The notes under the pieces: generated by a model
The model's input: only the letters and a program-made list of their open reading frames with translations
Database searches by the model: none
What the model was told of the DNA's origin: nothing
Program-made: the position numbers and the translations under genes
Shown here: piece after piece, positions 6,943 to 53,900 of the stretch
Numbering within the stretch: position 1 is the first letter of the stretch
Layout of the letters: each line of letters begins with the position of its first letter
DNA from: Physcia stellaris
Lineage: Eukaryota; Ascomycota; Lecanoromycetes; Caliciales; Physciaceae
Length of the DNA stretch: 64,000 nucleotides
Assembly: GCA_018902385.1 (NCBI GenBank)
Contig: JABSSW010000002.1
Span: 744,001 to 808,000, forward strand
Reading direction: 5' to 3'

Positions 6943-8039
6943 ATGAGCAGCCCAGGAGCAGGCTTCGAGTACCCGACCCAGGAAGTATCGTGGCTCAAGC
7001 GGGACGTTCTCCTCTTCGCGCACAGCATCGGCTGCACCGCCGATGAGCTTCATTTCCTCTACGTCAGTTCCTCTCCCTCAAAGTCCCATCTCCCCATTCT
7101 AAACCCACGAAGGAGCTCCACCCCAACTTCCAAGTCTTCCCCACCTACCCCATCATCCTGCGTACGCCCCCTTCCCCATCTTACCGCTATAAAATATCCG
7201 GGGAAAGCCTCATCTGACACCCCTCAAGCATTCAAACGCACCGACCAAGAAGTAACCAACTTCCTCGCCCGCAATTCCCCCGCGCCCATCCCCAATGTCC
7301 CAAAATTCGACCCCAAACGCGTCGTCGACGGCCAGCGCTCCATCACCTTCCTCAAACCCCTCCCACCCACCAGCGCGGGCAAGACCTTTGAAGTCCGCTC
7401 CAAGGTCCTCGGCGTCTACGACAAAGGCAAAGCCGGGAGCGTGGTCGATACCGAGACTATACTGGCGGAGAGGGGAGGCGAGGAGTACGCGAAGATGGTA
7501 GGGAGTGCGTTTTTCGTGGGGCAAGGCAATTGGGGGGGACCCAAGGGGCCGAGTACGGTGAATTATCCACCGCCCGAGGGGAGGGCGCCGGATGTGAGAC
7601 ATGAGCTGCGGACAAATGGGGAGACGGCGCATTTATACCGGTATGCTATCCTGTCATGGTTTGGTGGTTTGAAGGGGAGAGGCTGATGGTGGCAAGGTTG
7701 AACGGCGATTACAACCCCCTCCATGCGACCCCTGAACCCGGTCGGGCGATGGGCTTCGGCGGCGCGATTATGCATGGGCTCTTTTCGTGGAATGTTGCCT
7801 GCCATGCTCTGCTGCAGACGCTGGGCGCAAGTAATCCGGGGAATATGAAGGAGTATCAGGCGAGGTTTGCGGCGCCGGTGAAGCCGGGGGATAAGTTGGT
7901 GACTGAGGCGTGGCGAACCGGAGAGAACAAAGATGGGTGGGAAGAGATCAGATTCGTGACGAGGGTGGAGGGAGGGAAGGTCGTGTTGAGCAATGGGAGG
8001 GCGCTGATGAAGTGCAGTGGAGTCAAGAGTCGACTTTAG
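6943..8039 (+). CDS. MaoC-like (R)-hydratase/dehydratase, hot-dog fold
   Basis: Four exons: 6943-7062, 7113-7161, 7229-7640 and 7697-8039, giving 307 residues. Junction phases are consistent: FLY|ELHPNFQVFPTYPIIL, then a split Pro codon before FKRTDQ, then a split Arg codon before LNGDYNPLH. The C-terminal half carries the hydratase-2 motif GDYNPLHATPE...GFGGAIMHGL, whose Asp/Asn and His residues are the catalytic dyad of R-specific enoyl-CoA hydratases and of the Fox2/MFE-2 dehydratase domain. The N-terminal half looks like the degenerate partner hot-dog, so this is a stand-alone two-domain enoyl-CoA hydratase 2-like enzyme. The natural substrate is probably an acyl-CoA. The C terminus (...GVKSRL) ends in SRL, a peroxisomal PTS1-type tripeptide, which suggests a peroxisomal beta-oxidation role. 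Confidence 0.88.
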
Positions 8040-14868: not shown

Positions 14869-14873
14869 GGTAC
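14869..14873. repeat. Target-site duplication, left copy (copia)
   Basis: GGTAC directly before the left copia LTR, matched exactly by GGTAC at 26075-26079. Confidence 0.85.
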
Positions 14874-15017
14874 TGTAGAACTAGGTGGCCAATCAGGGGC
14901 CGCCAAGAGCTTAGTAACTAGTGCGCATTTCAATGACATTAGATGCTAAAAATCATGTAAATTAGCACCTCATAGAACAACATGCAATCAATGATTTATC
15001 TATTCAGAAGTCTTACA
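14874..15017 (+). repeat. Left LTR of the copia element (144 bp)
   Basis: TGTAGAA...TCTTACA. It differs from the right LTR by 12 transitions and by lacking nine bases (TTGAATGAC) after TGTAGAA. Unlike the element body it keeps CC and GG dinucleotides. Confidence 0.9.
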
Positions 15018-16397
15018 ATTATGAGTTCGAATCACGCTTAATTGTTGCATTCAATACGTGATTTATTTGACTATCAATACTTTCAGCATTCGATTGCTTC
15101 GACAAACTAACACGAGAAATCAGAACATCGCGAAAACATTTTCTTGTTTACATTCTTTTACAATCAAGAATTTCTTTCTACTTATTCGCTCGTTCAGCAC
15201 GATGACGAATACGAAGCGAGAATTCAAATTGAATTTTTTCAAAAACTGAAACGCGTGACTTTCGATCGTACGAGTCAAAATCACAAAATACTCGATTTGA
15301 AATTTCATCGATTCATTCAAAAATATTCGATCAACGAGCAAATTTGAATTCGTAAAATTCAATTTTGATGCACAACAAAATGTGAATTTCAACGAAAAAC
15401 ATGTTCGATACAAGATAACGACATCGAAATACAAAAAAAATTTCAAAATTGAAAGAAGCAAAAGAATTTCATGACAAAAATAATCGATCACATTTACGAT
15501 ACAACAACGATTACAAATTTCAATTTTATTCAAATCGTTGAAATTTATTCATGAATCGTTTTTCGCGTTTTCAAAACACGTTTTGCATTCATCGATTCGA
15601 TTAGAAATTTGAAATTGAAACAAAAATACAATCGTATGATCAAAAATTCATTCAATCGTCAAAACATCGATGTTTGACTAAACGATTATTTAAAGATGTT
15701 GATTTTCGTTAAGCAAACGAAAATTGCTGAAATTATCGATAGCAAACGAACGTATCGTGATTTTTTACACGCAATCGACAAAATCGCATTTATTTTCGTT
15801 GAAATACAACTATTTCAATTAAACATCGTAACGAATCACGAAACAACGTTTTTCATTTTCATCGAAATTTTTCGTCATCACATGCGCATGAAGAAAATTC
15901 GAAAAAAAAAAAACGATATTCAACTCGACATTCGCAATTGACGAATGCGAACACACAAATCATCGAAATTTTTTTGACATTTCGTCATTTCGAAATCAAA
16001 ATTAGTTTCGAAATCTTTGCATTTGCGAAAAAAAGCATTTTTACGACGATTGTTTTTATTTCAACGAGAAAATACGTTCAGATGATTTCAAATTGAAATC
16101 AGAAATCGTGACTAAAATAAACGAAACGAAAAAGAATTCAAAGAAAAGAAAACAAATAGAACAGAACATCAAACGAATTGACGAAAAACGTCAAAAAAAA
16201 AACGATAACAAAAGCACAAAAGTCGAAGTAAAATTTTTCGTCGTCATTCACGTCAATGTCATAAAATCGTTTACAAGCGACTCGTTTTCGTCAAGTTATT
16301 TTTTTCGTTCGTCGTGAATTATGAATCACGATTTCGACATTCACGTGATCAACAACACAATGAAACATCGCTTTCAAAAGAAACGAAATTGCACAGA
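15018..16397 (+). pseudogene. Copia gag and 5' pol remnant
   Basis: AT-rich stretch with weakly coding frames on the plus strand (for example 15144-15347, 15696-15941, 16093-16317), each ending in TGA. The Lys/Asn/Gln-rich character fits a mutated gag and protease-side region; no catalytic motif is legible. It continues after the gypsy element at 22950. Confidence 0.6.
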
Positions 16398-16402
16398 CGA
16401 AT
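16398..16402. repeat. Target-site duplication, left copy (gypsy)
   Basis: CGAAT before the left gypsy LTR, matched exactly by CGAAT at 22945-22949. Confidence 0.85.
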
Positions 16403-16722
16403 TGTAAGAAATAAGAATTCAGAATTTCCGAGAGTGCGATTCGCATCTCGTCAAGCAATTCGATTATCGAAATTCGAATGACTTCGAAAAAAATCAGTTT
16501 CAATCATTTTACAACTCGATCAACGATAAACTCAACAAGTTCATATTGTCAGTCGAAATCGTCCGAATTCGTACGATTGAATAAATAAAATGCAAATAAA
16601 AAACAATTGCAAAACGTAATTTGTTTTGTAACGATTAATAAATCAATATATTACATTTCAAACTATACATTTCTGATGTCAATAATTCATTAAATTATAC
16701 TATTTCTAATACGAGTTTTACA
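16403..16722 (+). repeat. Left LTR of the gypsy element (320 bp)
   Basis: Begins TGTAAGAAATAAG and ends TTTTACA. Same length as the right LTR, no indels. It aligns without gaps and was used to read the mutation context. Confidence 0.92.
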
Positions 16723-16799
16723 TTCTAATCGTTATCATATTTCAGAATGATGTCATTCGTGTATACTTAACAAAATACAGTTTTGTTGTTTCGCATACA

Positions 16800-17870
16800 T
16801 CATGTCGAATTCTGATAATGATTTGCTTTTTGAATTTGTCGAAAATGCTGACGTATTTTTCTGATTGATTTATTACAAGCAACAGATCGAAAAAAATTAT
16901 AAAAAAAAAATCAAACTGCAAACTCGAAATACTGAACGTTCGAAATCTGTAATTTCTACTTCATCTGTTTTTATTTCATCTATTTCTGTTTCTGATTCTG
17001 TTTGAAAATTTTTCGTCATGAAAATTATCGAAACGATATCGAATCAATATGAAGAAAAAAATTACAAAAAATGAAAAAAATATTGCAAACAAATGAAAAG
17101 TCAATTCACGCAAAACAACGTGAATCACATGATTCAATTTTCGAATTTAGTCAAAATCGCATACGTTGATATTTATTTTAAGTCAAATAGCAATGCGAAC
17201 AAGTTTTGAAACGCAAAAATCGATTTTCATTCAAACAAACAATACATCTGAAACGAATTCAAAATTTTTTTGAAAAACGACATCGAACGAACAATCACGT
17301 TGCAACAAAATTTTTTGAGAAAATATCGCAAACACAAACAAAATCACAATCAATCGATTAAAAATTACAATGTCGAACGAATAAATATGTTTGCTGAATT
17401 AAAATTCGAATTCAAATTCACGAAAACAATGAAATTCAACGATTTTCGTGACGAATTACGTTTGAAATTTCGCTGCATGTTTTTCAAAAAAAAGAAAATT
17501 CTTACAAAAACGAAATTGTTTGAACGACTCAAACGTATGAAAAACGCTCAAATCTTGAAAAAAAAATTCAAGAATTTCAAGAAACGTAAAATCTCGTTCG
17601 ATATTGACAACTTTGAAAACGAAAACGAAAAATTCAAAATTGCGAAATTCAAAAATAAAAAAATCAAAAATATTAACAAGATCAATTCGAATCACGAGTC
17701 AATCAAATCGAAAAATATTCGAATGTATCGCTGATTCGTCAGTGAATTCAAGAAAATTCAAAACAAAAATAATTGTATAAATTGTGACAAATCAAATCAT
17801 CAAATCGAAATTTGCACAAACAAAAAAAACAAAATCATTTTCGCTGATCAAATTTTTGAGCAATCAAAAA
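16800..17870 (+). pseudogene. Gypsy gag remnant with an intact CCHC zinc-knuckle pattern
   Basis: A Lys/Asn/Phe-rich plus-strand frame, longest piece 17270-17734. Downstream, at 17773-17815, one frame reads C-I-N-C-D-K-S-N-H-Q-I-E-I-C, an unbroken C-x2-C-x4-H-x4-C nucleic-acid-binding knuckle, as expected at the end of a gypsy gag. Trp codons are absent and TGA stops punctuate the frame. Confidence 0.7.
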
Positions 17871-18059
17871 ATTAATCGATTTGATGATTTTCGTTCAAGT
17901 CGTTAAAAAAAAAAAATTTTCGAATTTCGATTTCGATACGTCGTTTTTCTCAGACATGAGCAAAAATCATGTTAACAAAAAAAGAAAACGACGCAAAAAA
18001 TTTAAAAAACTCGTGATTCGTAAGTGCGTCAAAATCAAAATTAACATACAGAACGAAAA

Positions 18060-21000
18060 CAAGATTTGAAACGAATCGAAAGCAATACTCGATACAAAAA
18101 CGAAAATTAATTTGATAAATCATGTCTATGCGAAAAAACTAAATTTTCGTCGCTTTGAAATTTTAAACTGTGATGCAATAACAATTGACAATCATCGTTT
18201 GAAAACGTATAACGTCTATTTCGTACAATTCGAAATGTCAAACGTCAAAAAAACTAATCGCTTTTTCGAGAAATCGTTTCTGATCGTGAATTTGAACTGA
18301 AATTTAACGTTAAACATGTTTTGAATACAACTTTCGAAAATCAAAATGAATTGAAACGACGACAATATCAAAACTTGACGTTGCAAAAAAAAGCATTTCA
18401 TTTTCATCACATGTCGTATCGAAAACATCGAATCAAAACAATTGATCATAAACGTCATCGATAACGAAATCGAAACGTATTTCATGTTCGTACGAATGTA
18501 TATTGACAAACAATTCGACATGCATGAAATGCATGTTTCAAAACGAATTCAAATAGAATTTGTCTTGATTGAAATGAAAAGAAAATTCGATGTCAAAATT
18601 ATTTTTTTCGATATTTTGAAAACGTATGAAAAACTCGATAACGAAAATAAAATTTACGAATTATCGAATCATGATTCAAACGATCATGCTATTGATTTAA
18701 AAAAAAACAAAAAATCGTCGCATGAATCAATCTACTTTCTATTTGAAAATAAATTTCGAATATTACGTACTTACATCGAGAAACATTTAACTAACGATTT
18801 TATTCGATTTTCACAATTTTTTGCAAAAGCGTTCATCTTGTTCGTCAAAAAAAAAACGATAATTTACGTCTATGTGTGAATTACAAAAATCTTAATGTTT
18901 TCACGATAAAAAATAGATATTCTTTATCGTTAATCGATGAAAATTTAAATAAACTCAGCAAAGTCGTCAAGTATATCAACATCGACTTGATTGTTGTTTA
19001 TCATCGATTGCGTATCAAGCATGAAAACGAATGAAAAACAATTTTTCGTATTCGATATGATCATTTCGAATATAACGTATTTTTTTTCGATCTCATTAAC
19101 GTTTCGACGACGTTTCAAAATTTTATCAATCGAATTTTGACGATTCGTTTCGATATTAACGTCATAATATATCTGAACGATATAGTAATTTACTCGATGA
19201 ACGTCGAAATTCATGTCGACGATGTCAAATGAGTTTTTGATCGTTTTAAAAAAAATAAATTATACATTGTTTTTGAAAAATGCAAATGATTCGTTGACGA
19301 AATAAACTTTTTTGAATTCGTCGTTTTTTTTCAAAAAATGAAAATGCAAAACAAAAAAATCGAAATTATTCAACAATGATCAATATTTCGCAACGTTTTC
19401 GACATCATACAATTTTTCGACATCGCTAATTTTTATCGACGATTCATTAAACATTTCAATAAAATTGCTGAATTTCTGATCGTTATGCTAAAGAAATCAC
19501 AAAAATTCCGAAAAAATATTCGTAAACGCAAACGAAATCAAAATCGAAATCGCAACAAATTATCGAATATTCACATTTTTTTGATCAACGAAACATTGAA
19601 AATCTTCAAACAATTTCGCAAAACATTTATCGAAATATCAATTTTACGTCATTTCGATTTCGAACGTGTTATTCGAATCGAAATCGACGCATTCGACAAA
19701 ATTTTTGAAATCATTTTATGTCAACAAGACGACGAAAATCACTGACATTTTGTTGCGTACTTTTCGCGCAAATTGATTTCGATCGAATGTCATTACGAAA
19801 TTCATGACAAAAAATTGCTGATTATTGTGATTTCGTTCAAGCAATGAAAACACTATTTCGAAAACGCAAAAAAACAAATTCTTATTTTTATTGATCATCG
19901 CAATCTGAAACAATTTATGATCACAATTAAATTGTCGTCACGTCAGATTCGATGAACTCAAAAATTGAATCGATATAATTTTTTAATCGATTATCGTTTC
20001 GATAACAAAAATCTTGCTGACGAATTTTCAAGACGATTTGATCACATGATGATTATTGAAAAAAACGTCGAAAACAATCGTCAAATCTTGAAACAATTGC
20101 AAAAATCATTGATCGCAAATTCGAAACGTTTCGAAAAAATACGAATAAATGCGATCAAAATCATGAATGCGATGCATGTCATGAAACGACTCATGAATGC
20201 AATGCATAACATGAAACGTCGATCGCATTTAAATGATTCAACAATCGAATCAATCAGCGTTGTTTCGAAAACATTTGATTCAAAAAATTCAAAACGAAAT
20301 CGAATTTCAATCAACGTTGTTTCGAAAACATTCGATTCAAAAAACTCAAAAAATTCGAAACATTCGATTGAACAAAAATCAAACGTGACATTCATAGAAT
20401 GAAAAATTTTTGTGTTAAAATCAGCGATTGTATCTGAATGCGCAATGCATAAAATTCGAATACAAATTGCTTTACGAAAAAAAACGACATATAACGACGA
20501 GTCAACATTTTCATTGTTGAATTTCGTTCGTGATTTGATCGTTAAAAATCAATTCGTTTCTGAAATATGCCGAAAATTAACTATTTCGAAAGCAAAAACA
20601 GACAGTTGACAACACAAAAATGAACTTTTGTATTACGACGATGTCGTTTACATTTCAAAAAATTTGCGTGAAAACGTTATTCGTGCACATCACGATAATT
20701 CGTTCGTTGATCACTTCGACATCGAACGAACGTTAAAATTGATACGTCGAAAATACTATTGATCGAATCAAAATTTTATCGAAATTCTTGAAATGCGACA
20801 ACAAATTAAAAAACATTGTGAAACATGCGTCGTCTGTAAACGAAACAAGATTGCACGACACAAATCATACGACGAACTTTTTTTTTTTTCGATTTCTGAA
20901 TTTAAGTGAATTGATCTTTTCATGAATTTCGTGACAGGACTTTTTTCAAATAAAGCATGAAATGAAACGATTTACGATTCGATTTTAGTGATTGTAAATC

Positions 21001-21600
21001 GTCTAACGAAAATGATTCATTACATATCAATAATTAAAACGATTTTCGCAAAAAATCTGATCGAAATTTTATTTCGCGAAATCATTCGATTTCACGATTT
21101 TTTTTCGTCAATCGTCATCGACAGAAATTTCATTTTCACGTTCAAGTACAACGATACACTGTGTTACGTTTTGAAAATCAAACGTAAATTGTCAATCGTT
21201 TTTCATTTTCAAATTGATGAACAGATCGAGCGAATAAACAGCGTCATGAAACAATTTTTTCGTGTTTTCGTCAATTTCGAGCAAAATGATTGAATAAAAC
21301 TGTTGTTCATGATCGAGTTCGTTTACAACAACAACAAACATGCATTTACAGACATTTTTTCGTTCGAAATTATGTTTGAATATTCATTTCGCATGTTTTT
21401 CGAGAAAACATGAAACAAAAAAATTAAATTCAAATTCGCAAAGAAACACGCTGAACATTTAACTGAATTATTTCGAATACTGAAAAACAATTTATTCGTA
21501 ACACAACAACAGCAAACGATGTATAAAAACGAACGCACGAAATCAATGTCATACAACGTCGAAAATTACGTGAATTTGAACGATAAAAATATCAAAATTA
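18060..21600 (+). pseudogene. Gypsy pol remnant (protease, RT, RNase H, integrase)
   Basis: Protease: KINLINHVYAKKLNF near 18100-18145, with the catalytic Asp region reading ILDTKTK. RT: LTNDFIRFSQ near 18790 and the catalytic box at 19170-19181 read as YLND, where gypsy has YLDD. This Asp-to-Asn change is a G-to-A after G, the same context as the other mutations. RNase H: ENAKKQILIFIDHRNLKQF near 19860-19915 and NRYNFLIDYRFDNKNLADE near 19967. Integrase: zinc-binding CETCVVCKRNK near 20820, core MIVNRLTKMIHYI near 20988, IVIDRNFIFTF near 21110, and FQIDEQIERINSVMKQFF, the counterpart of the family DGQTER region. All domains are in order but interrupted by TGA codons at former Trp positions. 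Confidence 0.88.
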
Positions 21601-22624
21601 AACGAAACAAGAAACTGAAATGAAAATTCTTTGAATCATTTCAAATTCTAAAAACTATAAAAAATCAAATTTATCGTTTAAATTTATTCAAACGTTGACG
21701 CATTCACGACGTCTTTCACGTTTTTTTTCTGAAAAAGTTCAATTCTAAAAAGAAAAAAAACGCGCATACGTCACATTTTTCTGAATTTTTTTATCAAATT
21801 GAAAATATTGAACTCGACGAAAACATGAAAATGAAAATCACGAAAAAATTTTATGAAATCGAAGTCATCAAAAACAGCAAAATTTTCAAAACAAATGAAA
21901 TTTCAGACAAATTTTACAACGAATTCGATCTTTACTATCTCGTGAAATGAAAAAACTATGAAAACGCGACTTGAAAATTTGCATCGTTTGTCAAGCATTT
22001 TCGAGAAACTTTGCGACAATTTCACAACGAAAATTCAAAGAAATCTGATGTCAATAAGAAAACAAATCATCGAAAATCACGAAAAAAAAACATTTTCAGA
22101 AATTGCTGTTCGATCTGATCGAGCGATGAGTCGTTGAATAAAAGATATGAAATGAAATAAAAAAAAATTTCGAAAATCTGAATATCAATGCGATCGCGAT
22201 TAATGAGCGTCTATCGCGTTACACATTTTTCATGATATCGATGTTGATATTCGAAATAAAAAAATGAAAAAATGAAAAAATGTTCGAATTCAGAATTTTC
22301 TGTCAACAAATCAGTTGTCAGTCATCATATCGAAAATTGTGAATGATACGAAATCAAACATTCGATCATGAAAGCAACAAACAATTGATTCATCAAATTA
22401 TGCTTTTTTTAAATCATTCAAGAAAATGTTTTTTCAAATTTTTAACGCAGATTGACTATTGAATTCGAACAAAAATATTTCGAGATGCGAAAATCACGAT
22501 CATAGTGATTTTTCAAGTCAATGCAAAATCAAGGCAAGCAAAACACGTCAAAGCAAACAAAATACGTCAAAATTTCTATTAACATGTTGATCTCAAAAGA
22601 TTTCGATGTTTAAAAAAAAACGTA

Positions 22625-22944
22625 TGTAAAAAATAAAAATTCAGAATTTTCGAGAATGCGATTCGCATTTCGTCAAGCAATTCGATTATCGAAATTCGAA
22701 TGATTTCGAAAAAAATCAGTCTCAATCATTTTACAATTCGATCAACGATAAACTCAACAAACTCATATTGTCAGTCGAAGTCGTTCGAATTCGTACGATT
22801 GAATAGATAAAATGCAAATAAAAAGCAACTGCAAAACGTAATCTGTTCTGTAACGATTAGTAAATCAATATATTACATCTCAAGCTATACATTTCTGATG
22901 TCAATAATTCATTAGATTATATTATTTCTAGTACGAATCTTACA
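22625..22944 (+). repeat. Right LTR of the gypsy element (320 bp)
   Basis: Begins TGTAAAAAATAAA and ends TCTTACA. Gap-free match to 16403-16722 with 25 transitions. Confidence 0.92.
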
Positions 22945-22949
22945 CGAAT
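22945..22949. repeat. Target-site duplication, right copy (gypsy)
   Basis: CGAAT, identical to 16398-16402. Confidence 0.85.
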
Positions 22950-25921
22950 CGAAAATTATGTTCGACATGAAATCATTTTCTATTTTGACATATGATCGAA
23001 TGCGTATCAACGTCGATACGTTCACAGAAAAAAAGTCAATGAAGTTTTTAAACGTCAGTTACGTATCAAATTTCATGATCAATATCGTCGCGAAAAGCAT
23101 TTTCGCAAACAAAAAATTGCATTTTGATACAGTTCATGAACATTTGCACAGAAACGATGCATCGATCGTTTTTGTGTCACGAATGAAAACACATTACGTT
23201 TTCGAAAATAATAAATTTGAAAAAATGAGCATTTTCGCAATCATCGTGCGACAAAAATTTATTTTAGAATGACATCAGTTTTTCGTTCATGCGAATAATG
23301 ACGTCATACAGCATTTACAAGAAGCAATTGAAAAAATGAAATTCATCAACAAAAATAAAATGTCATTAATTAACAAATGCGAAAAGTGTGTTTTTTTCAA
23401 AACACATCGAATTGTATTCAAATTCTTTGTAAAGTCAAAAATTTCGAACAAATCGTTTTATCGTATTACATACGATTTCATCGATATGACAACGATTTTG
23501 AACAAGCACAAATGAATATCACACGTAACATGTTTCGAAACAGATTTTCACATGATATACACGCACGAGAGCAAAAAACAAATCACGAAAATGTTTATTC
23601 GAATCATTCATACAATCGAAATCAAATACAACGACAAAATCGTATTTGTACGTTTTGACGACGAACGTGCGTTAAACATTCAATGAAATAATTATTGCGC
23701 ATTCAAAAACATTACATTTGAGTTTTCGATCGTTGATATTTCAGCACAAAACGATCACAGCGAACGATTAGATGACATATTGTTGATCAAGTCACGAACA
23801 ATGAAATTCAAAGCAAATTTATTTGTTTATTTATGATCGTGAATCAATGAAATCGCTGATTACATAATGAATCGTACATTTTTCAAAAAGCATGAATGAA
23901 AAACATCGTTCGAAATGATTATCGACAAAAAGTCGAATTTTGTTCACATCGTTCAATATGAAACAAAAACATATTTTCTGAATAAGAATATTTCGAAAAA
24001 GAAAAAAATGAGAATCAAAGCACACATCGACTTTTTTGTAAAATATGACAACATCAACATTTTTTTTATTTGAATTTCTAGTCAACGAAAAATTATACGT
24101 ACACGTGATGTCATATTCAACGAAAATTCACGTTATCGTTTTAATGAAATAAATTTAATTCAACTCGTCAACGAGCTTTTTCTGATTAACGATACGCTTG
24201 ACATATCGCAAAGCGATTTCACGAAAATAATGAACATCGAATCAGACAACGACGAAAATGTATGAAAATTAACATTTACAGAATTTATTATCGATCGCGA
24301 TGCAAAGAAATTTCACAAACAAACGATTGAAAACGATTTTGAATCAAAATATTTATTTTCATTTGTTTCATTTTCGTCAAGAGATGAGAACACGTCAAAT
24401 ACGTTTGATTTTTCGTATTTTTCGTCATTTGTCGTTACAGAAAATTTTTCGTCATTTGTCGTTGCAGAAACAATAGAGAAACTATTTTCGCTTGCATCGT
24501 CGTTGAAAGAAAAAAAATCGAAACATTGAGCGAAAACAACGATTGACGAAATCAATATTCAATCTGAAAAATTCATTCGCATTCGCAAATCAAATTCGTT
24601 TCGAAATTTCAATCATTACATCGTTTTAGAAAATGCATTCGCAAAAGAAATGCGTTCATTTTATGAAACATTTATGATTTCACTTACGAAAGAAAAGAAA
24701 TCGCATCGTGACAATTTTTTCGTCGAATTACGTTTTTATCATCAAATGTTCAAACATTTTGAAATCGTCGATTTTTTACGAATCATTGACGTGAAAATCA
24801 AGACATTATAGTCAAAGCAGATTTGAAAAAAAATTTCATGAAATCATGTTAAGCAAACAGAAAAGATTTCTATATTTATTACATGAATATTCAAATACAA
24901 ATTCGACAACGAAAAATATTTGATAAAGCACAAAATTCGATTGTGTGTTCGAAAAAATTTTCAACAAATCGAGCAAAATGTTTACGCAATTACATTAACT
25001 ATTAAAATTTTTCGAGCATTAATGATCATAATTACAGTTTTCGATTTGAATATTCGTCAATATGACGCAGTCAACGCATTCGCAAATAACGATATCGACG
25101 AATTCATTTATTGCAAATCGTTTGACGACTGAAAAAAAACAAACAATGTGTTACTTTTTCTATTGAAAGCGCTTTATGATTTGAAACAATTTTCAACATT
25201 GTGATATCGTCATTTATCGATCATTCTCAACAATCTAGATTTGAAGCAAATGTTCGATATCGAATGTTTATTCATCAACGATTACATGATTCTATTTTTC
25301 TTCGTGAACGACATAACAATCATGTATTATTTTCAGTATTTCAAACAAGTCGACGTTTTCGAAAAGAAACTTTTCGAAGCATACGAGATGAGAAACATCG
25401 ATGAAATCGAATGATTTCTCAATATTCGCATTACACGCGATAAAGAGCAACAAACAACGTCGTTTTGTCAAAACAATTATATCGACAAACTCATCAACAA
25501 ATTCAACATTGACATGACTAAAAAAAAATCAGAATCATCTATATTCATTCACATTCAATGCGATAATCGTCAGATTATACGAGTTTTCACTACTTTTGCG
25601 ATCAAGCTCATCATTAAATTACGTCATGTCGATATACATCGACATTGATTTCGTCAGAAAATGCAAAAAAGCACGATCAACATTCAATGAATTTTTACAG
25701 CGAGCATTTTGATCGACGATTTCATCAAAACTTTATCATTTCAGAAGCAGAAGACATTCGTGAAACTGATTGATTTAGAGTTTATTTCGATATCAGAATC
25801 GAAAAAGAGCAACGAATTCGATCAATCAAAAATCGAATAGATCGCATCATGAATCACATCGAAGAATGAATAAAACATCAAAAATAGAACGAAATATCAA
25901 ATATTTTTTTCTAAAGAGATG
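22950..25921 (+). pseudogene. Copia pol remnant (pre-integrase, integrase, RT, RNase H side)
   Basis: From 22958: LNVSYVSNFMINIVAKS, then HFDTVHEHLHRNDA (pre-integrase zinc region) and an integrase stretch with C-E-K-C at about 23377-23395. From 24920 the RT shows FDLNIRQYDAVNAFAN and LKALYDLKQF near 25165-25200, where the family has ALYGLR/K. A later frame holds FFFVNDIIIMYY (family FVDDI; one Asp is now Asn). Frames end in TGA at 23272, 23658, 25132 and 25404. Non-functional. Confidence 0.85.
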
Positions 25922-26074
25922 TGTAGAATTGAATGACCTAGGTGGCCAATCAGAGATCGTCAAAAGTTTAGTAACTAGTGCGCACTTCAATGACATTAGA
26001 TGCTAGAAATCATGTAAATTAGCATCTCATAGAACAACATGCAATCAATGACTTACCTATCCAGAAGTCTTACA
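25922..26074 (+). repeat. Right LTR of the copia element (153 bp)
   Basis: TGTAGAATTGAATGACCTAGG...TCTTACA. Pairs with 14874-15017. Confidence 0.9.
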
Positions 26075-26079
26075 GGTAC
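26075..26079. repeat. Target-site duplication, right copy (copia)
   Basis: GGTAC, identical to 14869-14873. Confidence 0.85.
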
Positions 26080-47671: not shown

Positions 47672-47943
47672 CATGGAAGTCGTGTACGAGTACCTTAGTG
47701 ACTGGTGTGTATGGGGTTCGTCAAAGAACGGGCTCGTTTGGTATTTTGTAGAGGGTAATTCGAAGTTACGTAGACCCTCTCCAAGCTGAAGAGATTAAGG
47801 GCTCCACCAAAAGTTTTCTTGCTATTTAATTTCTATCCCAAACGATTATTAATTAGAGGGTGGATCTTCCTCCAGACCGAAGAGCGCTAATAATGCTTAG
47901 ATGAGGTATTTATACACGGGATATCCCACACCAGCTCCCTACA

Positions 47944-50900
47944 TTACTCAATGAGCATAACATCCCCATCCCCCTCCCGCAGCCGAGTAACGACATACCC
48001 CCCCTCCCCTTCCTCATCCTCATTATCATCTTTCTGCTCTCCCTCTCCGCCCTCCTCATCCCCATCCCCCTCACCATCCTGCCCGCCCTCCCCCTCGCCC
48101 TCAACATCCTCAAACTCCAACCCCACCATCTCCTCATCTCCATCCCCCTCCTCCTCCCCCGGCACAACCCCATCTCTCGCATCCGGCGTCCCTCCCACCG
48201 CCTCCTCAGGCGCATCGACGAACTCCTCCACCTCAGAGAGCTCGCTCTCGTCGTCCGCGCTATCGTGCACGCTGCCAGGGACGCTACTCCCCCTTCCTTG
48301 GCATCGTCTGCACGGGGCGAGAGGCCGGTTGAGGGGCCCTCTTCCGCCTCGGCTTCGGGGGCGTGCTCGGCCTCGCGCGCCTTGGCGGCGTAGGCGGCCA
48401 AGGTCGCTGCCGGCGATCGGGCGACCAGCGCCTCGGCTCGCTTCTGCACTTCGCGCCTCGTGACGCCTTTCGTGCGCGTCTTGGTCGGGGGCACGTCCCC
48501 TGCTCTGCCGACTTGTTCCGGGGGCGGAGTGTCTGCGGGGCCGGTGAGGACATGGTCGACGCGCATGCGGACTCGGTTTTCTTCCTCGTTGGAGCGGGCT
48601 ATGATCTCGGGCATTATAGTTTCGTAGAGAGTGGCGTACGCGTCGCCGATGAGGTCGTCGATCGAGCTCGCTTTCATGAGGTTGCTGTTCAGCTTCCTCA
48701 GCTCGATGGTTTCGCGGAGGAGTTCGATGAGCGGGGAGTCGAAGTCGGGCTGGTGGGCATAGGTGTCGAGGCGATCGGCGTTGAGCATGAAGACTTCGAG
48801 CGGGACGGCCTTGAACATGCGGTCGAAGTGGCCTTGTTGGATGTCGCCTCTGGAACGCAGAAGGCTCAGGTATTGTCCGCAGATGCTGTCCCAGAGATCG
48901 GCGTGGCCGATGAAGTCTCCTGCTTTCTTGCGTATCTTCTTGGCTAAAGCTTCCAGGCTGGTGGTGTCGCCGATCTGTATGAGCAATCGAACGAAGAAAT
49001 TGACGTAGCGTGTTGTGTAGACGAAATGTCGGCCTGCACGCTCGTGTTCGGGCCTCCAGACTTGGATGTTCATGGTTTTTGTGAAGATCTGCTGTGTAAG
49101 CTCCTCCTTGGCTGCTTTCGCACATTCGGTGTTGTCAGACGAAGTATCGTAAGCAATGTGTGCAGCTCGAACTGCCATTCGGTGATGCCAATTTTGCTTG
49201 TCGGCGGAGCGTAACATCCTCAGCACCTCTATTTCGTACTGTCGCCATCTGCCAGGCTCATTCGCAAATGGTACCTTCCGCGCGTAAGGCGTGATCCTGA
49301 GGTAGTCGTAAGCCGTCGGTATATCGAGTCGGTTTCTCCGCACGAGCTTGTGTACGGTCGATAGTAGTTTGTAGTGTGGCTCCAAGATAGGGTCTTTGTC
49401 TCGACGTTCAGGGACTACTTCGACAGCGCGTTTGAAGGCGTCCAGTGCCCCAGTGTGGTCGATTCTTTTCGCGTCGCCACGGATTTGATCGCCACAGTCA
49501 TGCATCTTCCACAGACATTTTCCAAGTAGGTACCAGCTTGCCCAGGCCTGAGGCTTACGGGCCACAGCTCGCTCCAACAGCACCTTCGCAAACTTCCAAG
49601 CAGCATACAATTGCAGTCCCTTAAAAGGCCTGCCTTTGTACATGCCCGTCTGCGAATTGTTGAAATGCCGTTCGAAGTCTTCCAAACCAAATGCTTTCAT
49701 TGAGTACGGTTCTCGTGAAGACGCATACACGCGCGTGGCAAAATCGTAGTAAAGATCGGGCATCTTCCCTACATCTTCCAACGACGCATTGGCACGGGAA
49801 GCAGTAGCTATAGCCATAGTGTAGCAGTGAATAGCATTTCTTTGGAGGGTTTTGAGCTCTTCCATAGCAGTGTTTAGTTTGTTGGCATTCCACTTCGTAT
49901 ACTCCTCGATCTTCACGTCGTAGACTTGTGCGAGTCTGTACCAGGCTTCCCATTTCTCTATACCCAGCTCTAGATCCTGCCTGAAATATATTGTCGCATT
50001 GTCTAGATCATCTAGTGGGCCTGGTATCGTCCTATTTTGTGCCCGGAATTTTGCTAAAGACAAATGGCCTAGTAAGTAGTACCATCCCTTGGCCGCGATC
50101 ATAGCAGTCTCCGAATTAATCTCGATAGATGGTAGGTCGACCACGCCTCTGAAAGAACGGTAGAGATCTAATGGATTAATGGCTGTCTTCAGATATGCAG
50201 TGATGGAGCGCTTGTTGAACGTTGTGTCGGTTGTTGCTGTGGGTAATTTAATGGCTGCTTGAATCTTCTCAATGGCTCCCTTCAGTTCATTCTTGGCTAA
50301 GTCTTTAATATTCATCCTGTTCGCATAGACAATGACGAAGTCCATGAGCTCTAGAGCAGCGTCACGGTCAAGAATCTCTGGGGTGCAACCATGGAATCTC
50401 AGCCCCCACCAGCTTGGAAGCACCTTGATTCCATGCAGATCGAATATAATCTGGGCAAAATCTCGATCCCAATTTGAGGTTCCGTCCTTTAATATTCCCG
50501 TATACACCCCCGAGGTTGCCTTGTGTTTCAACATTTCTGACCTGATCAGTTTCAGAAGCCGCTTTGACTGAAGCCCACATAGATCTCTCAGTCCAAGCGA
50601 GTCGTGCAGGAGATTTAGGTGTTCCAGAAGATACTGGCCAGGCAGCTCAAAAATTTGAGGATCTTGGACGATTGCTTCTTTGACAAGCATGTACTGCAGC
50701 ATCCAAGTCTTGACCTGCAGATTTTCGAATTTCGCCATCGACGCTGTATGACCAGTGAGTGCTGACCCACGCGGCGGTTGGAATGTAGGGGTTTGGCCCA
50801 CACGGACAGAGTCTTTCCATAAGAGGTAGACATGAATAATTCGCTGAAGAGCCGATAAAATTGACAAAGAGGAACGCAGGCGAGAATCATCCATGAAGTC

Positions 50901-53900
50901 GAATGCATTCGTTTCGTTCATTGCACAAGACAGAATCGAAGTCACAAGTACATCTAACTCTCGCAGCCACCCAAGCAGATCTAGTTGGCGCGTCTCTCTT
51001 GTGGTGGTCAAATATTCTTGCGAATGTAAGTAATTTAGGATCAGCTCCATTCGTTGGAAGTCGATTGACAAGACTCTAGGTGGATAGTGAATAGCTTCAT
51101 ACGCACTCCCTAGCTTTTGCCAGAGATACAAGCGAAGGGGCAGGCTCGCCTTTCGTATATACTCGACCATACTATCGACTTTCGGGTCTGCCACGCTTTG
51201 ATGGTCTAAAGCAATGAAATCAATTTCTAGACTTGTTTGCGCACCATTTTTAATGTTGTGGTCGGCTAGTTGAGGGTTGTGGCCCTCATTAGGAGTAATC
51301 TTTGTCAATTTTTCAAGCATAGGTTCCAGACTTTCTATGATTGTGATAGGCTCACTGTTGTCAGAGTTGAAAATACTCAAGAAAAAGTCCATCGTCGTCA
51401 AGCTAGAGATTTCTCTTTCGGCGGCTTCAATCGATACTTCTGGCATTGCTGCGTTATTCTGCAGCTGTATGATCGGACTGCCAGCGTTCCGAAGGACAAT
51501 TTTTAGGTCTTGAAAGCACAGAACAACGTGGTCTCGAGCCGAGGGATCTGTGAGGCTGACATAGACTACTGAAGACCAGAGGAAGCGTATTTCTAGTTGA
51601 TCTAAGTCATGGTGCCCTACACTTGGGGATCGAAGGCTCATGGCATTAGATGCAAGTGAATTCCACCGACCAAGGCGATCCAATTGTGTGGCGCGCGTCT
51701 CCTGGTCCACTTCAGAGCTAGGATTCGTGATTCGTTCATATATGTCCAGATGTATTTCAAACATGTTTTGCACTTGCTTCACGAATGATTCCTCACGATC
51801 GTCGAATCCGACTGGGTTACGTTGAGGCATAATATGTAATAGCTGCTCGTCTCGTACATTCAGACGATCTTTGAAGGAGTTGTAAATATACCCATCTCTT
51901 TGCACAAGGATCTGCACGACAATCTTTTTGAGAGACTCTGGCCATTTATTCATCTCATACCTGGATATCGGCTGCCAATCTGTACCACCGGACCGTACGG
52001 TAGGACTTAGTAGTCTCTCAATCCAGGCCAGTGCTAGCTGATCCAGGCTTGTCCAGCCTTGGTTAATTTCATCGGCAAACTCGTCCAGTCCATCGTCCGG
52101 TGCCGAAGTGGTCGATATTACAGGTTTTTGAGACACGCGTTTAGAATTCTCAAGAAACACTGTGAAATTACGAGTTCCGTTGGCACCACTGAATTCGTCG
52201 TCTCCTTTTGACTTCCGCAAGAAGATATTGCTTTTCTCAAGATTCCAGGATGCCAAAAGGTTCTTAACGTCTTGTGCTGCAATGTCGCCTGGGTCAACCG
52301 GAGATTGGTCAACGTGAGCGATGGAAGCCCTCAGTGTATCAAGGGTTCCCAAACGATCAGCATCGAGTTTCGACAACAAAGTGCAAGCAGACTCGAAAAG
52401 TGAGGAGTCTGCCGTCACAAATTCTCGCAGCTGCTGCTCGTAATGATTCGCAACATCTTCGGATATACCATCTGCAGTTGAGACTCTAGCTTTGATTCTC
52501 TTACTCTTGGAGCGTCCCGTGTCGGGAGACTCTGGCAATCCAGCGACCTCCAGAGATCTTTTTCGGGTTGGAAGTGACATTGTTCTTTGAGATTCGAGGA
52601 TTTGCGACTGCAATGGTTCGGCATCTGTGTGTTTAGAGTCTAACAGCTCTTTCCTTTGCTCTTCTACTGGTGAGGCTAAGTCGCTTCCGACTTTGTCAAG
52701 ACTATGTTCGTCATATTCCGCTTGTAGACCTGTAGCCACGTGAAGGATCTTTTCTTGCTCTATAGATGGTGAGTCCTTCGTTGCTTGTTTCACTCGCGGC
52801 GACACTTCCCCGTGATCGACGTCTTCTTCTTTCGAAGTCCCAAAGACTACCGAGTTATCTTCAATAAGATGTGTCGGTAGTGCACTTGATGTAGAACCGC
52901 CTTCTCTCAAAAAGCTAGCTGATTTTGGACCTGATCCCACTACAGAGGGTAGCACCAGGCGATATGCAGTGCCAAAATCGTTATCTAGGCCCTGCGCTAC
53001 CTTGGTGATTTGCAACAAGATTGACTTTCCGACGCTTTCCCATGTTCGCAAAGGTACAATGATATCATGCTTCTCCGCTTGGGTTTCCAATAAAGCAGAG
53101 AGAGACTGTCCCCCAGGCGTTTCATGGGATGTAGGTAGATAAGGGTAAGGATCCACAAGTTTCTTGAGCGATTTGACTAGACCTGTTTTCCTACCTGGCC
53201 AAGACTTTATCTCTGATTCTGCGATTTTGTCGTCCAAGGTTTCTAGCAGAAGCTGTAACTGCTCTGCAGCCAGGCTCTCATCAAGTCCTTGGGGTTCTGG
53301 CCAGAGATCGTAATTGCCATCGTCAGTCTCAAGTGCAGCTTCAAGACAATATCTTGCCAAACGTTTACTGCCAAGAAAAACACACAGTCTTGAGATTAAT
53401 CGCCACAACTGTAAGTCTGTGTCGTCTCGATCGGTTGCTTCAATGAGAAGACGGAGGCTGGCTAAAACAGTGCTGCGAACTTCCCTGTTATCCAGAGTGG
53501 CTGCATTATCGCCATTCGATGACAAAGTCTGGGAACGGGAGATCTTGCTCTTTAGCTGATCAAGGAGAAACTGACCGTAATTCTTGTAGGCAAGATATAG
53601 GATTTGAGGCAGGGCGTTTGGCGTTTCGTTCGCATTATTCGACGGCTCGCCGTCATTGGCTTGAATCGAGTTGTCCAGAAAGTCTTCCTCGTCCTCGACC
53701 TCAGCATAAGTATCTGCCTGCTGGAACGATGCAACGGATTCAGGATAGGTAAAGATCTCGGAATTGAACAGGGTCTTATACGCCGCTGCTGCATCCTCGA
53801 AGTATTCAGGTCCCTGACTATGAAGTTTTAAAGCATTCTGATAATGTCTTAGGGCTTCTTCAATCTGGGCTAATCAGTATTCCCAGTTGACCATGGGACG

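Follow-up and report, generated by a model that had tools for sequence, protein, structure and literature searches.

Repeat-induced point mutation (RIP) in Neurospora and the majority of ascomycetes prefers cytosine followed by adenine (CpA; PMC12543289, PMC5555474, PMC4352252), and a survey published in 2025 and covering 1,239 fungi describes CpA preference as shared by RIP-like defences (PMC12543289). CpT signatures have been reported beside CpA in Botrytis cinerea, Sclerotinia sclerotiorum and Magnaporthe oryzae (PMC4352252), CpA and CpT are both targets in Anisogramma anomala (PMC10998396), and in Colletotrichum truncatum the bias is towards CpT or CpA depending on the repeat family (PMC6180176). 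In one survey the changes that dominate in RIP-capable control fungi are CpT to TpT and ApG to ApA (PMC7882544), so that CpT was already known as a target. Methylation of MAGGY in P. oryzae is higher at CpA than at CpC and CpT (PMC7979813), and RIP in copies of ribosomal DNA (rDNA) is known, chiefly at CpA (PMC5555474). The subject here is a stretch of 64,000 nucleotides from Physcia stellaris, referred to as the window (positions 744001 to 808000 of contig 2, or C2, in an assembly of 44.0 Mb and 147 contigs), in which a Ty1/copia element at 14874-26074 encloses a Ty3/gypsy element at 16403-22944. Repeats of all the kinds tested in this genome (gypsy, copia, DNA transposon fragments and one rDNA unit) carry dense C-to-T changes where C precedes a pyrimidine (CpY); CpC is hit above CpT, and CpA and CpG are nearly spared. 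The nested elements are laid out as follows, with long terminal repeats abbreviated as LTRs and observed-to-expected ratios as obs/exp.

14869 to 14873, no strand: copia 5′ target-site duplication, GGTAC
14874 to 15017, plus strand: copia 5′ LTR, lightly mutated (0 of 19 CpY sites in the outer 75 bp hit, against a relative of normal GC content)
15018 to 16402, plus strand: copia internal part 1, CpY-hypermutated (CC obs/exp 0.00)
16398 to 16402 and 22945 to 22949: gypsy target-site duplication, CGAAT, flanking the gypsy element on both sides
16403 to 16722, plus strand: gypsy 5′ LTR, hypermutated (LTR alignment and dinucleotide obs/exp)
16723 to 22624, plus strand: gypsy internal region, hypermutated (CC and GG 4 seen, 242 expected; CT and AG 218 seen, 595 expected)
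18795 to 22157, plus strand: gypsy pol frame (reverse transcriptase, RNase H and integrase H2C2 matches)
22625 to 22944, plus strand: gypsy 3′ LTR, hypermutated (LTR alignment)
22945 to 25921, plus strand: copia internal part 2, hypermutated (RVT_2 match inside the frame 24812-25837)
25922 to 26074, plus strand: copia 3′ LTR, mutation light near the outer edge
26075 to 26079, no strand: copia 3′ target-site duplication, GGTAC

The two LTRs of the gypsy element align over 320 columns with no gap and differ at 25 sites (11 CpT, 12 ApG and 2 CpC), and those of the copia element align over 153 columns, 9 of them gapped, with 12 differences (3 CpT, 2 ApG, 5 CpC and 2 GpG). All 37 differences therefore fall at CpY on one strand or the other and no other substitution is present, an outcome with a chance probability of about 5e-16 under a model in which all C have the same chance of changing, independently of one another. 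These figures reproduce exactly, coordinates included, the hand counts of an initial annotation made from the letters of the window, in which 25 of 25 and 12 of 12 differences were C/T changes before a pyrimidine; the same annotation had reported neither CC nor CT in 17281-17340, where indeed both are absent (one AG is present). Its wider statement, that C inside the elements is nearly always followed by A or G, holds for CpC, which is almost gone, and fails in part for CpT, which is reduced (obs/exp 0.36-0.42) rather than absent. In the gypsy interior obs/exp is 0.02 for CpC, 0.36 for CpT, 1.22 for CpA and 3.03 for CpG. Across the interiors of the nested block, which has a GC content of 0.29, the corresponding ranges are 0.00-0.02, 0.36-0.42, 1.15-1.30 and 2.7-3.0, and in the window flanks all four dinucleotides lie between 0.88 and 1.10. 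Among the twelve longest runs free of CC and GG that were listed, the top two, within the block, measure 3403 and 2944 bp and the longest outside it 77 bp. The copia LTRs are only lightly mutated (CpC obs/exp 0.86 and 0.59), because hits fade towards the edges of the element.

The direction of change was set by aligning mutated copies to relatives of normal GC content, namely the fetched loci (numbered with the prefix L) L013 (GC 0.51), L043 (0.52) and L044 (0.45), the last of which is itself slightly mutated (CpC obs/exp 0.79, 4 TGA). Pooled over three repeat families and 24 mutated copies (11 against L013, 3 against L043 and 10 against L044), C-to-T changes were counted at 7764 of 8021 CpC, 7718 of 9139 CpT, 717 of 10024 CpA and 273 of 8576 CpG sites, for a total of 16472 C-to-T changes beside 495 T-to-C changes and 399 transversions; copies within one family share history, and the pooled changes are thus not independent events. 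The comparison of L013 with L030 is the clearest single case. Over 3477 bp there are 910 C-to-T changes (437 of 439 CpC, 447 of 458 CpT, 26 of 444 CpA and 0 of 410 CpG), one T-to-C change and one transversion, which implies that the damage preceded almost all other divergence and that saturation was fast. Two further members of the L044 family outside the pool, L063 and L070, agree with the pooled spectrum (respectively 158 of 161 and 129 of 135 CpC, 170 of 205 and 122 of 162 CpT, 19 of 259 and 10 of 218 CpA, 8 of 216 and 5 of 174 CpG). Also kept outside the pool were L045 of the L043 family (59% identity; CpC 120 of 206, CpG 65 of 200), the comparisons of L014 with L029 and L032 (about 60% identity, too distant to polarise) and those of L017 with three copies, for which the reference L017 is itself mutated.

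It is mainly the base 3′ of the cytosine that matters for targeting. In the 24 pooled copies the hit rate at CpC is 0.98, 0.91, 0.99 and 0.98 when the following base is A, C, G and T, respectively, and at CpT it is 0.84-0.86 regardless of the following base. The 5′ base shifts hit rates by at most 0.05, and overall the -1 and +2 positions have little influence at CpC, CpT or CpG. The residual CpA hits lean towards CpA followed by a pyrimidine, with 207 of 1707 sites hit before C and 256 of 2589 before T, compared with 149 of 3455 before A and 101 of 2144 before G (rates of 0.10-0.12 and 0.04-0.05). As controls, copies of normal GC content were compared among themselves. Copia locus L046 against L047 and L058 (96-97% identity) gave 71 C-to-T and 67 T-to-C changes, at 35 of 1429 CpY and 36 of 1622 sites where C precedes a purine (CpR) (p = 0.72), and the gypsy pair L014-L015 (95% identity) gave 58 and 75, at 35 of 910 CpY and 23 of 898 CpR sites (p = 0.14).

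The spread of the pattern was surveyed with searches for the gypsy LTR (40 scored matches of 200 candidates, 93-100% identity, the query copy counted), the copia LTR (40 of 74 candidates, 85-100% identity) and the Pfam domains RVT_1 (150 of 527 candidates scored, all 150 reported), RVT_2 (140 matches) and DDE_1 (11 matches). The best 30 RVT_1 and best 30 RVT_2 matches make up 60 reverse transcriptase (RT) loci, of which 49, spread over many contigs, are mutated, with CpC obs/exp no higher than about 0.5. In none of the 72 loci whose composition was profiled does CpA obs/exp fall below 0.99, and by this measure CpA-type RIP was not seen in any of them. The initial annotation had named two results that would reduce its signal to a local one, CpA as the main class of change or a lack of CpY bias in other families; in the retrievable genome the main class of change is not CpA, and the CpY bias recurs in other families. 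Composition is normal in the window flanks, at the methyltransferase loci described below and in two 10-kb stretches. Copies of normal GC content, such as copia L046, L047, L058 and L074 and gypsy L014 and L015, coexist with saturated relatives.

The usual RIP indices do not register this damage. With the customary thresholds of TpA/ApT above 0.89 and (CpA+TpG)/(ApC+GpT) below 1.03 (as given in PMC6180176 and PMC10998396), none of the 49 mutated loci passes on either index (0.34-0.53 and 1.22-1.65, respectively), and among the 11 other RT loci one passes the first (0.96, within a range of 0.63-0.96) and none the second. The ratio CpY/CpR separates the two sets fully, at 0.001-0.45 in the mutated loci versus 0.76-1.07 in the other 11.

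Targets extend to other kinds of repeat. The DNA transposon fragments L082 and L083 contain no CC and no GG, L081 is intermediate and L080 is normal. The C/T differences between L082 and L083, a pair that cannot be polarised, include 15 of 68 CpG, 8 of 18 CpT and 6 of 70 CpA sites and probably reflect divergence of two families. Among 39 scored candidates a single 5.8S match was found, and with its surroundings it represents a CpY-mutated rDNA unit (L073, C41:45899-46052). Ribosomal RNA is conserved across all eukaryotes, and the relic therefore gives the direction of mutation without a transposon reference. Against the capital letters of the Rfam consensus, C is hit at 27 of 30 CpC, 17 of 33 CpT, 0 of 27 CpA and 0 of 34 CpG sites, and against all consensus letters at 113 of 168, 62 of 100, 12 of 96 and 26 of 134, as counted over 11 Rfam alignment blocks with low-quality and A+U-rich variable blocks excluded. 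The working rDNA array is seemingly missing from the assembly, in which this relic was the only 5.8S match found.

The reading frames of the elements carry the same mark. Mutation at CpY turns TGG into TGA and cannot make stops from CAA, CAG or CGA, hence an excess of TGA is expected. Stops number 250 TGA, 33 TAA and 3 TAG in the 150 RVT_1 matches (10 of which are stop-free), 224 TGA, 37 TAA and 2 TAG in the best 60 of the 140 RVT_2 matches, and 48 TGA, 3 TAA and no TAG in the 11 DDE_1 matches. Within the window, the gypsy frame at 18795-22157 holds 19 TGA and neither TAA nor TAG in 1121 codons, and the copia frame at 24812-25837 holds 8 TGA.

Both strands are hit in every pair of the pooled comparison, and in copia elements hits thin out across the outermost 150 bp or so and are not visible in the flanks. 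The outer 50 bp have 0 of 17 sites hit both in L075 and in the window element; further in, the hit rate rises to about 0.5-0.9 by 150-400 bp and then stays at about 0.8-0.9, and it also drops towards the 3′ edge. Nine copia elements, each on a different contig, show an increase in hits from 10 of 81 sites at bp 1-25 to 44 of 54 at bp 151-175, although these elements are partly non-independent, L088-L091 having near-identical edge counts; without these four the outer-edge count is 3 of 95 (p = 4e-7). Of eight loci considered as possible solo copia LTRs, seven are element ends, and L087, which has no element-interior match, was excluded from the edge count. Identical LTR bases were hit at 23 of 171 sites at the outer edge versus 16 of 43 when internal (p = 0.00075), and hence distance to the repeat edge matters and not LTR sequence alone. 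The nine 150-bp outer flanks, with a GC content of 0.41-0.53 and 27-44 CpY sites each, show no visible mark of mutation. The flanks of L089 (C10) and L091 (C138) are 91% alike, which would reflect either duplication of the stretch or insertion of the copia into repeated DNA. Mutation in the copia elements is confined to the region of homology, as in RIP.

The features of RIP found in this genome are repeat-bound C:G to T:A transitions on both strands and a putative RID-class gene; preference for CpA is lacking. CpA preference is usual for RIP and not strictly defining. The best explanation, with a probability of roughly 0.7, is that this filamentous fungus has a RIP-like genome defence with a 3′-pyrimidine target, in which the enzyme and the sexual timing are the parts that we infer. 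The initial annotation had proposed a RIP-like process at CpY, and this is supported by changes that are directional, sited in repeats, present on both strands and bounded by the repeat, with CpA and CpG nearly spared. In the haploid nuclei of the sexual phase, repeat copies would be recognised through homology, and an enzyme of the C5-methyltransferase class would act on C and read the next base as purine or pyrimidine. A one-base 3′ rule without a 5′ effect is the mode of CpN-type C5-methyltransferases. Since the process reads the base 3′ of the cytosine and disregards the one 5′ of it, the evidence favours the second of the two routes that had been suggested, deaminase or methyltransferase, and speaks less for a free cytosine deaminase. 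Since C-to-T change keeps a pyrimidine and G-to-A change keeps a purine, mutation of a neighbour never abolishes a target and near saturation is possible. That this is RIP with its target reversed, a RID-class methyltransferase having switched from reading a 3′ A to reading any 3′ pyrimidine, is given somewhat better than even odds.

The suggested check for homologues of RID and DIM-2 yielded candidates for both. A PF00145 search returned four places corresponding to three genes. The C3 gene is DIM-2-like, its open frame of 1001 aa matching DNA_methylase, DUF7893 and, below the cut-off, BAH; no relatives of its protein were found in a search of the genome contigs. The genes on C5 and C6 have PF00145, no BAH match, PPCQ and a C-terminal GNAVPP motif, and have E-Q-T or E-E-T in place of the ENV of most methyltransferases. 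With E-x-T presumed to be a marker of RID, we class them as two putative RID-class methyltransferases, one of which is the most likely actor, possibly with the DIM-2-like protein. They differ greatly in length, the C6 gene (L009), at about 790,900-792,560, encoding 513 aa and the C5 gene (L011, L012, L076), at about 498,800-501,700, having an 816-aa open frame and a further exon (not fully spliced). In the Protein Data Bank the candidates match bacterial methyltransferases and DNMT1 best. The genome also has a MAT alpha match, which makes a sexual phase plausible.

Several points weigh against the proposed defence. The link of any enzyme to the process is an inferred one, and the RID class assignment depends on a missing BAH match and on motif wording rather than on a tree with named RIDs. 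Eleven of the 60 RT loci are unmutated or slightly mutated, and copies of normal GC content persist without clear CpY bias among themselves, which means that the process skips some repeats or generations, or that these copies spread asexually or arrived recently. The rDNA case is a single relic and the sole non-transposon repeat seen.

The alternative that survives best, although unlikely, is slow decay, in which vegetative CpY methylation, for example by a DIM-2-like enzyme, is followed by long-term deamination of 5-methylcytosine with no repeat-induced step. A DIM-2-like gene is present, Neurospora DIM-2 reportedly methylates C in every CpN context and CpT by preference (PMC13297926), and a Dim2-dependent mitotic mutator is known in Zymoseptoria (PMC8016269). 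However, the 910 C-to-T changes against 2 others between L013 and L030 are too fast for clock-like decay, and the 37 CpY changes of the LTR pairs stand with no other substitution (apart from the gap columns in the copia pair). Quite unlikely as well is a division of work between two enzymes, one acting on CpC and the other on CpT. Three methyltransferase genes are present and the per-copy hit fraction in the 24 copies is uniform at CpC (0.91-1.00) and variable at CpT (0.60-0.98), but one enzyme preferring C over T fits equally. Improbable is deamination in every context followed by context-biased repair that restores C before purines. The low yet non-zero hit rates at CpG and CpA are what it would leave, but such repair must rescue 93-97% of CpR sites and only about 3% of CpC, with other neighbours barely mattering.

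Editing of retrotransposon cDNA or single-stranded DNA by an AID/APOBEC-like or other free cytosine deaminase is very improbable. The genome has 11 PF00383 matches to the cytidine-deaminase fold, and in 4 of 6 pairs neighbouring CpT sites are nominally a little more concordant on the same strand than on opposite strands, by 0.02-0.09, whereas the other 2 show the reverse, so that strand clustering of hits is weak at most. AID/APOBEC deaminases read the 5′ side, yet the -1 base has no effect here; strand hit rates are equal in the one pair tested (372 of 377 and 516 of 524), counter to the strand bias expected of cDNA editing; and hits in DNA transposon fragments and rDNA cannot be explained by it. 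On these three grounds it was rejected. The best match to the fold, at C64:178666-179121, has four in-frame TGA, which may be introns or mutation. Ordinary CpA RIP, compositional chance and sequencing artefact can be dismissed, as nothing was found in their favour and they are contradicted by the CpA ratios of the 72 profiled loci, the directional context counts, the LTR-pair statistics, the signal in 49 of 60 RT loci on many contigs and the sharp limits of the signal against normal DNA within the window.

Two other frames in the window are worth recording. The frame at 13353-14267 matches phosphoacetylglucosamine mutase (AMG1); some 600 bp downstream of it comes the copia element, with no CpY loss in between. 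On the minus strand, 47910-53525 holds a 1871-aa open frame with no Pfam match at 1e-4.

The measured copies form a clean exception to the CpA rule of the survey, with 97% of CpC hit and 93% of CpA spared. Standard RIP indices are built on CpA and miss CpY damage, while CpY/CpR detects it, and if the retargeted-RIP reading is true a clade with such RIP may stand scored as RIP-free in kingdom-wide surveys. How RIP selects its base becomes a testable question. With TGG to TGA as the main stop gain, the resulting protein damage is unlike that of CpA RIP. The initial annotation had stated that no process with this context was described. CpT as a target is already in print, but CpC as first target with CpA spared was not found there and would be what is new here. 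Open-licence papers yielded no report of CpC-led mutation sparing CpA, which is weak evidence of absence as the search covered neither subscription papers nor preprints; the parts consulted of PMC7862722, PMC11969663 and PMC7296669 do not contain a CpC-first spectrum, and PMC4858203 has no relevant terms.

Among known systems, RID-dependent RIP of Neurospora crassa resembles the present case in its repeat-bounded C-to-T changes, its extension to rDNA and its RID-class gene, but prefers CpA. Botrytis, Sclerotinia and Magnaporthe share the CpT target and a RID-class gene; in those fungi CpA is also a target and the main text does not name CpC (PMC4352252), whereas in P. stellaris CpC leads. Colletotrichum truncatum has CpT bias in several LTR families, whose substrate index of 0.08-0.12 points to depletion of CpA too, and no RID homologue was found in it (PMC6180176); here, in contrast, CpA is in excess (obs/exp 1.2, gypsy). 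The Dim2 mutator of Zymoseptoria tritici is likewise a context-strict source of C-to-T changes in repeats tied to a methyltransferase, but it is specific for CpA, with more than 98% of C-to-T changes in that context (PMC8016269). Microbotryum is similar in having RIP-like C-to-T changes at a non-CpA target; its TpCpG context means that T is read on the 5′ side and G on the 3′ side (PMC4352252), whereas the process in P. stellaris ignores the 5′ base and spares CpG.

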